Shown in pieces: positions 10,037-12,444 of a stretch of DNA of 43,396 bases (positions are counted from its first letter, which is position 1; every line of letters starts with the position of its first letter). The position numbers and the translations under genes were made by a program. Origin of the DNA: Candidatus Neomarinimicrobiota bacterium (lineage in GTDB: Bacteria; Fidelibacterota; SORT01). The stretch is from positions 1 to 43,396 of the forward strand of contig JADFGO010000008.1 in NCBI GenBank assembly GCA_022567655.1, read 5' to 3'. A model generated the notes under the pieces. The model searched no databases. It was not told where the DNA came from and was given only the letters and a program-made list of their open reading frames with translations.

Positions 10037-11745
10037 TGGATATAAAAGGGAAGACGATACTGGTTCTCGGCGGTTGGGGAATGGTCGGTCAGTCGATTTG
10101 CAGAAAGTTGATTCCCGAAAATCCTGCAAAAATAGTGATTTGCTCATTAAGAGAGGAAGACGCCGAAACGATGGGAGAGTGGCTGAAGAAAGAAGTCAGC
10201 GGAAAAGACATTGAAGTCGGCTGGGAATGGGGCGACGTATTTTTAAGAAGCAAGTTTATGAAGACAGGCAGGCCCGAGATGCTGAAAGATACCGATACCC
10301 GCGGACTGTTGTTGGATGATATGATGTCGGAAATGGACAGCGATTTTTTGAAATCGACGGCGCTTTATTACCTGTTCGATAAGTACAAACCTGAATGTGT
10401 GATCGACTGTATAAACACAGCCACCGCAATCGCTTACCAGAACATTTACGGAAACGTAGGAAAAATTCGGGATATTATAGAGGATATAAAGAAGGACAAA
10501 TTCGATACCGCGCTGCTTATAGAGCAGCTCGAGCTTACTCTGGCATCGTTGAACATGCCTCAGCTTATAAAACATATACAAATTCTGTTTGAATCGCTCA
10601 AGTCGTGCGAGGTCAGAATATATTTGAAAATCGGTACGACAGGCACCGGAGGAATGGGATTCAATATTCCATATACGCACAGTGAGGAAAAACCGAGCAA
10701 AATGCTTCTGACAAAATCTGCAATAGCCGGCGCTCATTCTATCCTGTTGTTTTTAATGGGAAGAACTCCCGGAACTTCGATAATTAAGGAGATAAAACCC
10801 GCAACGGCAATTGCATGGAAAGATATCGGAAAGGGAAAAATCAAGAGGGGCGCCAGCTATATAAAATTATACGACTCCAACCCTGAAGACGCTGCAGAGA
10901 TAGATTCCGGACAATCGATATTCGAGCAGGGGAGTTGGACGGAGTTGGAGAACGAATATCTCGAAAGCGTCTATATCGATGCGGGAGAGAACGGATATTT
11001 CTCACTCGGTGAATTTGAGGCGATAACCACTCTCGGACAGATGGAGTTTATCACGCCGGAAGAAATAGCCGTGATTGCGGTACAGGAGATCAAAGGTATA
11101 AACACCGGAAGGGACATCATCTCCGCCTTGGACGCCTCTATTCTCTCCCCGACGTATAGAGCAGGCACCATGCGGGAGATCGCACTGAGCGAAATGCGGG
11201 AGATGGAAGCGGAATCTGCGCACGGCAGCATAGCGTTCGAAAATCTCGGACCTCCCCGGCTCTCAAAGTTGCTTTATGAAGCCTACATGTTGAAGCGGAT
11301 AGACGGCAAACTTCAATCTCTCGCAACCGCCTCTCCTAAAGAACTGTCAATTAAGATGGAAGAAATAATCAAAACCGATAAGTGGATCCGCTCGACCATC
11401 ATCTCAATAGGGCTTCCGATAATGCTGCCCGACGGGAAGAGATTTTTGCGGGGACCGGATATTAAAACGCCCGCTGTGGATGAAAGGAAGGAACTTCCGT
11501 CGTCAGAGGAAAAGCTCGACAGCTGGTGCGACAGGGGATGGATCGATCTGAGAGAAAAAAACATGGATAGATGGATTAAAAGAGCACAAAAAATCATATC
11601 CGACATAGAAAAGCAGAGTTCGGAAGATTCGTCGTCTTATTTGGAGCGAACGAAAAGGTTCTGGCTGGGCGATGAAGAGTTTTCCATAGGAAAGATCGTC
11701 GGGTGGATATTCGAGACTGAAGAGAGCGGATTCAGAATGAAATAA
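10036..11745 (+). CDS. NAD(P)-binding Rossmann-fold protein, SDR-like, function unknown
   Basis: 569 residues. The N-terminus is a dinucleotide-binding site, 'TILVLGGWGMVGQSICRKL' (GxxGxxG type), as in extended short-chain dehydrogenases and epimerases. 'KPECVIDCINTATAIAYQN' fits the strand-4 region of that fold, and 'IYLKIGTTGTGGMGFNIPY' with 'SKMLLTKSAIAGAHSILLFL' suggests an active-site Tyr/Lys area, although the classic YxxxK is not clean. The remaining ~300 residues match nothing I recognise and end in a charged, helical C-terminus. It is much longer than usual SDR proteins (250-350). It is the last gene of the operon (1-base overlap with rluB) and is followed by the repeat region. Reaction and substrate unknown. 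Confidence 0.6.
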   Translation: MDIKGKTILVLGGWGMVGQSICRKLIPENPAKIVICSLREEDAETMGEWLKKEVSGKDIEVGWEWGDVFLRSKFMKTGRPEMLKDTDTRGLLLDDMMSEMDSDFLKSTALYYLFDKYKPECVIDCINTATAIAYQNIYGNVGKIRDIIEDIKKDKFDTALLIEQLELTLASLNMPQLIKHIQILFESLKSCEVRIYLKIGTTGTGGMGFNIPYTHSEEKPSKMLLTKSAIAGAHSILLFLMGRTPGTSIIKEIKPATAIAWKDIGKGKIKRGASYIKLYDSNPEDAAEIDSGQSIFEQGSWTELENEYLESVYIDAGENGYFSLGEFEAITTLGQMEFITPEEIAVIAVQEIKGINTGRDIISALDASILSPTYRAGTMREIALSEMREMEAESAHGSIAFENLGPPRLSKLLYEAYMLKRIDGKLQSLATASPKELSIKMEEIIKTDKWIRSTIISIGLPIMLPDGKRFLRGPDIKTPAVDERKELPSSEEKLDSWCDRGWIDLREKNMDRWIKRAQKIISDIEKQSSEDSSSYLERTKRFWLGDEEFSIGKIVGWIFETEESGFRMK

Positions 11746-11751
11746 AAATTA

Positions 11752-11769
11752 CGTGGCAGTCAAGACTTG
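11752..11769 (+). repeat. 18-base direct repeat, copy 1
   Basis: CGTGGCAGTCAAGACTTG, matching 12168-12185 at 17 of 18 positions. It sits immediately after the last operon gene and before the first GC-rich repeat. Confidence 0.7.
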
Positions 11770-11780
11770 CCCGCCTGGCA

Positions 11781-11837
11781 TTCCCGCCAGACCGATGTCC
11801 TGCCCGGCAAGCGGTCTGACGGGCGGGCTGAAGTCGG
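11781..11837 (+). repeat. GC-rich dispersed repeat, copy 1
   Basis: 57 bases, identical at 55 positions to 12066-12122. It holds an internal inverted repeat: CAGACCG (11788-11794) against CGGTCTG (11812-11818), with outer CCCGCC (11783-11788) against GGGCGGG (11821-11827), so it can form a long GC-rich hairpin. Confidence 0.85.
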
Positions 11838-11877
11838 ACTGGTCCTGACGCCCTTAAGACATGTTCTTGCGGTCAGT

Positions 11878-11891
11878 CCGGCAGCTGCCGG
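11878..11891. repeat. 14-base perfect palindrome
   Basis: CCGGCAGCTGCCGG is its own reverse complement. It lies between GC-rich repeat copy 1 and the first GTAG hairpin; role unknown. Confidence 0.7.
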
Positions 11892-11915
11892 ATGCATTCA
11901 ATATTCACTTCAAGT

Positions 11916-11939
11916 GTAGGGGCGATTCACGAATCGCCC
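11916..11939 (+). repeat. GTAG-hairpin (REP-like) 1, forward
   Basis: GTAG (11916-11919) lies directly at the foot of a stem: GGGCGATTC (11920-11928, counting the pair G11920-C11939), a 2-base loop AC, and GAATCGCCC (11931-11939). GTAG next to a short imperfect hairpin is the recognised layout of REP units used by RAYT transposases. Confidence 0.7.
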
Positions 11940-11963
11940 GTGAAAAAGCTGGTGAATAGCTGT

Positions 11964-11987
11964 GGACAATTCATGAATTGTCCCTAC
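11964..11987 (-). repeat. GTAG-hairpin (REP-like) 2, reverse
   Basis: A perfect 20-base palindrome, GGACAATTCA/TGAATTGTCC (11964-11983), is followed immediately by CTAC (11984-11987), that is GTAG on the minus strand at the foot of the stem. Confidence 0.7.
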
Positions 11988-12014
11988 ATGGATATCCCAT
12001 CGGATATGAAATGA

Positions 12015-12040
12015 GTAGGGGAAGGTTTATTAACCTTCCC
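12015..12040 (+). repeat. GTAG-hairpin (REP-like) 3, forward
   Basis: GTAG (12015-12018), then GGGAAGGTT (12019-12027), loop TATT, AACCTTCCC (12032-12040). Nine-base-pair stem, different in sequence from the other four. Confidence 0.7.
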
Positions 12041-12065
12041 ATAAATGAGACAGGATTGCCTTGTA

Positions 12066-12122
12066 TTCCCGCCAGACCGATGTCCTGCCCGGCAAGCGGT
12101 CAGACGGGCGGGCTGGAGTCGG
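12066..12122 (+). repeat. GC-rich dispersed repeat, copy 2
   Basis: Near-identical copy of 11781-11837 (two substitutions by my alignment). One change, CGGTCT to CGGTCA, weakens the inner stem. Its 3' end runs directly into the hairpin at 12121-12141. Confidence 0.85.
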
Positions 12123-12145
12123 GCAGGTCACAGACCTGCCCCTAC
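12121..12145 (-). repeat. GTAG-hairpin (REP-like) 4, reverse
   Basis: GGGCAGGTC (12121-12129), loop ACA, GACCTGCCC (12133-12141), then CTAC (12142-12145) directly at the foot, so the GTAG is on the minus strand. It overlaps the end of GC-rich repeat copy 2 by two bases. Confidence 0.7.
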
Positions 12146-12167
12146 GATAAACGAGTAAATGCCGTAT

Positions 12168-12185
12168 CGTGGCAGTCAGGACTTG
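12168..12185 (+). repeat. 18-base direct repeat, copy 2
   Basis: CGTGGCAGTCAGGACTTG, one mismatch to the copy at 11752-11769. It precedes the third, nested GC-rich repeat, so the two copies bracket the middle of the array. Confidence 0.7.
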
Positions 12186-12210
12186 TTCCGAAGGAATCTC
12201 AATACGCAGG

Positions 12211-12288
12211 CACCCTTCGACTCCCCGCCTGACGTTCGTCCTGCCCGGCAAGTGGTCAGACGGGCGGGCAGGCGCTCAGGGTGACTAC
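12211..12288 (+). repeat. Palindrome interrupted by repeat copy 3
   Basis: CACCCTTCGACTCC (12211-12224) and GCGCTCAGGGTG (12272-12283) form complementary ends (CACCCT/AGGGTG). Removing the middle leaves a compact 'CACCCTTCGACTC...GCTCAGGGTGA' hairpin unit. A CTAC tetranucleotide follows at 12285-12288, one base from the stem. The layout suggests one repeat inserted into another. Confidence 0.55.
12221..12272 (+). repeat. GC-rich dispersed repeat, copy 3 (diverged)
   Basis: Shares the core TCCTGCCCGGCAAG and GGTCAGACGGGCGGGC with copies 1 and 2 but differs at several positions in the 5' arm. It lies inside the loop of another palindrome (12211-12288). Confidence 0.75.
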
Positions 12289-12310
12289 GCCACACTGATC
12301 CAGTAAATTT

Positions 12311-12334
12311 GTAGGGACAACTCAAGAGTTGTCC
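12311..12334 (+). repeat. GTAG-hairpin (REP-like) 5, forward
   Basis: GTAG (12311-12314), then GGACAACTC (12315-12323), loop AA, GAGTTGTCC (12326-12334). It is the unit nearest cmk. Confidence 0.7.
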
Positions 12335-12444
12335 TGGGGCAATTCCCCGCCTCCTTTGAGGTCAACATCTACCTGAGCTTCACGGTAGAATGGAATAAAA
12401 ATACTTGCATTAACATTTCTCTTAGAATACCTTAAAAAGCTGTG

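Follow-up and report, generated by a model that had tools for sequence, protein, structure and literature searches.

GTAG REP elements in head-to-head, BIME-like dimers make up a repeat cluster in front of cmk

Five hairpins with the tetranucleotide GTAG at their foot share a single intergenic region, and the locus raises the question of what these hairpins are and how they came to be there. The window analyzed here (the whole stretch of DNA, 43,396 nucleotides) is contig C8 of genome G000, a 2.14-Mb genome in 150 contigs that is 96.6% complete. An initial annotation had described the hairpins as a REP/BIME-like array of strictly alternating orientation. Scanning the window for GTAG adjoining a perfect stem of at least 7 bp, we obtained exactly five matches, all at 11916-12334, which confirmed the annotated positions and the strand order +, -, +, -, + to the base (Table 1). 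In every unit GTAG immediately adjoins the base of a perfect 9-10 bp stem, which starts with GG and is closed by a loop of 0-4 bases. This is the form of GTAG REPs, in which an unpaired GTAG stands at the base of a stem of 6-13 bp closed by a short loop. In 60 first-order (dinucleotide) random sequences of the window, the mean expectation per 43-kb window was 0.05 for stems of at least 8 bp and 0.017 for stems of at least 9 bp, with a maximum of 1.

The array consists of REP elements of the known GTAG superfamily, and the 0.6-kb patch that holds it is of the REP/BIME kind previously described in many bacteria. The REP/BIME-like reading is supported by GTAG hairpins located between genes throughout the genome, by the presence of a RAYT gene, and by empty sites in two relatives. 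Judged from its sequence, the hairpin patch is clearly mobile DNA. We consider it very likely that the locus is a GTAG REP cluster of head-to-head, BIME-like dimers that accumulated before cmk, with a GTAG-reading RAYT as the presumed mover.

Table 1. Features of the repeat island and of related RAYT genes (positions are those of the window unless a genome is named)
Feature	Position	Strand	Basis
Left target copy AGAATGAAATAAAAATTAC, holds the stop codon of the upstream gene	11734..11752	+	flank alignment
Repeat island (insert), not at the orthologous site in G001, G002	11753..12386		alignment of both flanks
Truncated GTGGC-GTCAGG hairpin unit, family flanking the resident RAYT	11753..11769	+	genome repeat search
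~50-bp imperfect palindromic repeat CCCGCCAGACCGATGTCCTGCCCGGCAAGCGGTCTGACGGGCGGGC, copy 1	11783..11828		repeat search
GTAG REP unit 1, type GGGCGATTC	11916..11939	+	window scan, genome-wide copies
GTAG REP unit 2, type GGACAATTC	11964..11987	-	window scan; dimer with unit 1 = 11916-11987; DNA folding
Spacer between dimers 1-2 and 3-4, apparent TATCCCATCGAAGATGGGATA hairpin remnant	11988..12014		copy neighbourhoods
GTAG REP unit 3, type GGGAAGGTT	12015..12040	+	window scan, copy neighbourhoods
~50-bp repeat CCCGCCAGACCGATGTCCTGCCCGGCAAGCGGTCTGACGGGCGGGC, copy 2, in spacer of dimer 3-4	12068..12116		repeat search
GTAG REP unit 4, type GGGCAGGTC	12121..12145	-	heterodimer with unit 3 = 12015-12145; genome-wide copies
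Second truncated GTGGC-GTCAGG family unit	12169..12185	+	genome repeat search
~50-bp repeat CCCGCCAGACCGATGTCCTGCCCGGCAAGCGGTCTGACGGGCGGGC, copy 3	12224..12272		repeat search
GTAG REP unit 5, type GGACAACTC	12311..12334	+	window scan, copy neighbourhoods
Decayed partner of unit 5, GGGGCAATTCCCCGCCTCCTTTGAGGTCAACAT..	12336..12370, end approximate	-	comparison of dimers; intact type elsewhere = GGGCAATTCCCCGCTTTCTTCGGGGTAAACGTGAATTGCCCCTAC
Right target copy AGAATGGAATAAAAATAC	12387..12404	+	flank alignment
In-frame RAYT palindromes	G008:C34:46858-46885 (L227); G104:C19:29331-29358 (L230); G071 (L074:1588-1617); G056 (L077)

Spread and pairing of the GTAG units

Searching the whole genome by pattern and by covariance model, and merging the strands of palindromes, we found about 69 distinct GTAGGG sites. 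Most of these (42) have a loop of 2 bases, and about 15 of the 42 are double-foot palindromes GTAGGGGACGCAGATCTGCGTCCCCTAC; 19 have loops of 3-4 bases, and in the remaining 8 a long loop encloses a further hairpin. Intergenic placement and tetranucleotide preference were measured on 387 kb of stretches from the same genome. When all 256 tetranucleotides were ranked by the number of times they adjoin the base of a perfect 8-bp stem, TAGG (20) and GTAG (19) led, followed by AGGG (8), against a median of 1; the two leading counts are largely the same sites in two registers. Despite 91% ORF cover, 16 of the 19 GTAG units fell outside ORFs of at least 100 aa. The genome-wide enrichment between genes that had been proposed as a check is therefore present. 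All stem types of the window were found again elsewhere in the genome, and GTAGGGGACGCAGATCTGCGTCCC has identical or near-identical copies at about 15 sites.

Across unit types, 7 of 9 stem pairs showed compensatory changes and 100% of the cells were paired. Since those seven pairs had changed on both sides while every cell stayed paired, pairing, together with GTAGGG, is what is kept. The units are thus multicopy and dispersed, predominantly extragenic, and defined by palindromic pairing and not by a fixed sequence, as GTAG REPs are. The initial annotation had held that the stems differ and that only the architecture is conserved; the stems are not unrelated, as all of them start with GG and belong to recurring, paired REP types. 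Units 2 and 5 are of one stem type and unit 1 is close to it. The idea of five unrelated stems needing five RAYTs was rejected because the stems recur as paired types.

Inspection of the neighbourhoods of the genome copies showed that many GTAG units are arranged as head-to-head pairs with GTAG on the outside. Two kinds of dimer were recognized: in kind A a GGACAAYTC unit is paired with a GGGCRATTC unit across a spacer of 1-24 bp, and in kind B a GGGARGGTT unit with a GGGCNGGTY unit across 9-80 bp. Pairs 1-2 and 3-4 of the window represent one of each kind. The window dimer types recur at C2:22417-22475, C2:42312-42419, C25:6485-6567, C58:2037-2085, on C19 and C55, and at other places, with the types of pair 3-4 being those at G000:C2:42312-42419 and C25:6485-6567. 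Unit 5 is followed by an eroded long-loop partner, whose type is carried intact at other loci (Table 1). The alternating order is accordingly real, and it arises from three successive head-to-head dimers (1-2, 3-4, and 5 with its decayed partner) and not from a strict alternation of single units. The array nonetheless has what defines a BIME, a single intergenic region in which REP units alternate in orientation.

A pair of inverted REPs plus spacer that is repeated as a unit at several loci is also what characterizes a REPIN, and such repetition was found. Folding of the DNA, in contrast to the single long hairpin of a REPIN pair, gave two separate hairpins for each of dimers 1-2 and 3-4, and they were therefore not filed as classical REPINs. 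At many left-hand units the tag is adjoined by a TCCCATC..GATGGGA hairpin, often imperfect, and several other copies have the TATCCCATCGAAGATGGGATA hairpin next to their GTAG tag.

Two further arrangements were observed in this genome. Double-foot palindromes repeatedly adjoin the 3' ends of genes (L004, L011, L172, L210, L224), and these genes end in a TFVQTKKMLL-like tail that resembles type 9 secretion sorting domains; an insertion-site preference is a possible explanation. Nested repeats occur at L177 (C97) and L178 (C55), where the loop of a GTAG unit encloses a CCCCGCTTTCTTCGGGG hairpin, which in C97 encloses another palindromic piece.

The insert and its empty site

The array lies in the gap between a 569-aa gene and cmk, both on the same strand. 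From stop codon to cmk start this gap measures 696 bases in the window versus about 60 in G001, a member of the same family but of another genus, which has the same gene order and an upstream gene ending in ...GGTTTTAGAATGAAATAA. The gap before cmk is also short in G002, where most of the upstream gene is missing. Because both relatives have only a short gap at this place, the window carries an insert, and the search of related genomes for empty sites thus succeeded in two of them; base-for-base conservation of the array, which would have pointed elsewhere, was seen in none of the sequences compared. In G002 itself, a large internal deletion apparently left only the two ends of the gene upstream of cmk (L157 1300-1460).

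The insert, about 634 bp long, is made almost wholly of repeats and is bounded by imperfect target copies of 18-19 bp. Repeats shared with the rest of the genome cover most of 11751-12370, excepting 12151-12190, and around the insert none shared with other genome loci was found outside 11751-12370. Its left edge coincides with a GTGGCAGTC unit. A duplication of 18-19 bp is too long to be expected from known Y1 single-strand transposition, and some other past event at this site may have produced it. Besides the GTAG units, the island holds members of two other families (Table 1), one of which, the GTGGC-GTCAGGGC hairpins, occurs at 43 sites genome-wide versus 0 for the reversed control. Since GTGGC hairpins and the 50-bp palindrome have gathered there as well, the gap behaves as a repeat sink.

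A position between two same-strand genes and perfect stems that would fold as RNA too could also suit a conserved regulatory RNA, or a terminator array serving the upstream gene or cmk. This we regard as extremely improbable: the array is absent from the orthologous gap in G001 and G002, the same units stand at dozens of unrelated loci, terminator-like sites numbered 0 against 0.7 expected, and no Rfam family reached its gathering score. A regulatory RNA was rejected on the lack of an Rfam match above threshold and of conservation at the site, and terminators were rejected as none was found at the array. For the REP cluster that we prefer, no cellular function would need to be assumed.

How recent the spread is can be judged from the family. 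The GTAG model gave 45 matches in G000 and none in the four same-family genomes; as these lack the GTAG repeats, the spread appears recent on the family scale. GTCAGG hairpins, in turn, were present in 5 of 5 genomes of the family (G000-G004), at 4 to 49 copies each. Throughout the family, GTCAGG..CCTGAC hairpins are often paired about 40 bp apart. The simplest account would be that the GTAG units came into the lineage recently together with a GTAG-reading RAYT, or were moved by one, on top of an older GTGGC family.

The resident RAYT and the candidate mover

On the REP reading, each unit would be a non-autonomous single-strand hairpin with GTAG as a guide at its foot, and the likely mover would be a REP-associated Y1 (HUH) tyrosine transposase, which cuts and rejoins single-stranded DNA. 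Searches with PF01797 and NF047646 recovered a single Y1 gene in G000, at C14:18206-18763. NCBIfam classifies its product as a REP-associated tyrosine transposase (NF047646, 89 bits, cut-off 80); the 186-aa protein contains the HUH and Y...NP motifs, and among solved structures E. coli TnpA-REP (4ER8) is its best relative. The genome thus contains a RAYT gene above the curated cut-off, as the initial annotation had suggested looking for and as a REPtron would have.

The close flanks of this gene, on both sides, carry GTGGC-GTCAGGGC hairpins and not GTAG units, so that they do not tie the GTAG units to the RAYT as they would in a REPtron; the closest GTAG unit lies about 0.7 kb off, on one side only. 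In E. coli TnpA-REP, GTAG is contacted by W94, Q95, E100, H101 and R104 (PMC6006769), and in the alignment the resident RAYT has W, M, D, L and R at the equivalent positions. Given the different hairpins in its flanks and the changed contact residues, the resident RAYT is probably not the cognate enzyme of the GTAG units. Its closest homologue in the phylum, from G057 (33%), is also flanked by GTCAGG-type hairpins. Of the two options raised initially, several RAYT families or one transposase reading mainly GTAG and shape, neither was borne out.

GTAG-linked RAYTs were found in other genomes of the phylum. In G008, G104 and G071 the enzymes have W, Q, E, H, R at the GTAG-contact positions, and perfect GTAGGGG palindromes lie within their reading frames; in G111 and G076 GTAG hairpins stand on the flanks of the RAYT genes; and in G013 one similar palindrome is located close to a RAYT match and a second borders a RAYT reading frame. 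The in-frame palindromes are perfect, 30-32 bp long, and placed after the HUH motif or before WQR.YYEH of RAYT-like genes (Table 1); the one in G056 (L077) differs from the others in being CACCAGGCGACGATTCGAATCGTCGCCTGGTG. That they are new was considered and rejected, as they have been described for subclass 2.4 (PMC6006769). In the cmk tree the window groups with its four family members (100/99), and the same-phylum genome G006 groups with named Neomarinimicrobiota (Fidelibacterota) (100/53). Cmk relatives in named genomes reached about 50% identity at best, and the tree suggests that the window and its kin probably belong to Neomarinimicrobiota/Fidelibacterota.

A second, GTAG-type RAYT was not found in G000 by PF01797 or NF047646, an absence that is no proof in an assembly of 150 contigs at 96.6% completeness, and a GTAG-linked RAYT protein used as query gave no match, a weak result from a single distant query. 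The resident RAYT seems to go with a different hairpin family, and we therefore infer another one as the mover: a GTAG-reading RAYT may have moved the units and now be lost, unassembled, or foreign and elsewhere.

Alternatively, the resident RAYT itself might move both GTAG and GTGGC units by reading a loose GTRG tag together with hairpin shape. No other Y1 transposase was found, the foot of both families bears a GT-G tag, fragments of both lie in the same island, and one RAYT group accepts variation in GTAG (PMC8266576). We nevertheless think this unlikely, as its W, M, D, L, R departs from the W, Q, E, H, R of GTAG-linked RAYTs, the homologue in G057 keeps to GTCAGG-type hairpins, and GTCAGG hairpins occur throughout the family while GTAG units are confined to G000. 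The account stays alive because the strictness of the GTAG requirement varies between RAYT groups (Corneloup et al. 2021, PMC8266576). Were one RAYT, its GTAG-contact residues changed, to serve both families and their many stems, heterodimers of unlike stems would be the natural unit of movement. A strict link between RAYT and hairpin is itself weakened by G002, which has 49 GTCAGG..CCTGAC hairpins though a RAYT search of that genome found none.

The failure to find a GTAG-type RAYT in G000, the decay of the partner of unit 5, and the direct duplication at the island ends, which suggests a replication event, would also fit ancient REPs that persist as relics, having multiplied by local duplication and template switching without any transposase acting at present. 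Many copies are, however, identical or near-identical (GTAGGGGACGCAGATCTGCGTCCC, for example), and the same-family genomes are without the repeats, which makes this explanation quite unlikely. A GTAG-reading RAYT remains our favored mover.

Comparison with known systems

The E. coli BIME shares with the array its alternating REP units within one intergenic region. The window palindromes are perfect, unlike E. coli REPs with their bulge, and pairs are formed by different stem types with GTAG outside. Pseudomonas REPINs (PMC3116915) likewise consist of two inverted REPs whose combination with a spacer recurs as a unit; here, in contrast, the partners are of different stem types, form two separate hairpins, and are spaced by 1 to 80 bp.

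Subclass 2.4 REPs are marked by a foot of three G-C pairs, by double-foot forms, and by copies lying in frame within the RAYT gene (Quentin et al. 2018, PMC6006769). Resemblance to TnpA-REP subclass 2.4 / RAYT group 4 is seen in the three G-C foot pairs of most units, in the double-foot GTAGGGGACGCAGATCTGCGTCCCCTAC, and in the in-frame RAYT palindromes, the last in other genomes of the phylum. Three G-C foot pairs and/or a double foot are present in the GGG-type and double-foot units but not in the GGA-type units (2 and 5), which have G-C, G-C, A-T at the foot, and no subclass 2.4-like RAYT was found in G000.

GTAG REPs as surveyed by Di Nocera et al. (2013, PMC3733652) have 6-13 bp stems and short loops, form head-to-head dimers and heterodimers, occur as several families per genome, and in some cases supply TAG stops; their hosts were Proteobacteria, Cyanobacteria, Chloroflexi and the PVC group. 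The window units agree with this superfamily: GTAG stands at one end, the 9-bp stem carries a short loop, copies are many and mostly intergenic, dimers and heterodimers are head-to-head, and one genome holds several families. They differ in that the resident RAYT is not flanked by GTAG units and in the host phylum, here kin of Neomarinimicrobiota/Fidelibacterota by the cmk tree. The general picture of what REPs are is unchanged. The pairing of W-M-D-L-R with GTGGC hairpins and of W-Q-E-H-R with GTAG palindromes provides a natural set for studying the co-change of RAYT residues and REP tags, and GTAG REP dimers are added, with a clean empty site, for a candidate phylum outside those of the 2013 survey.
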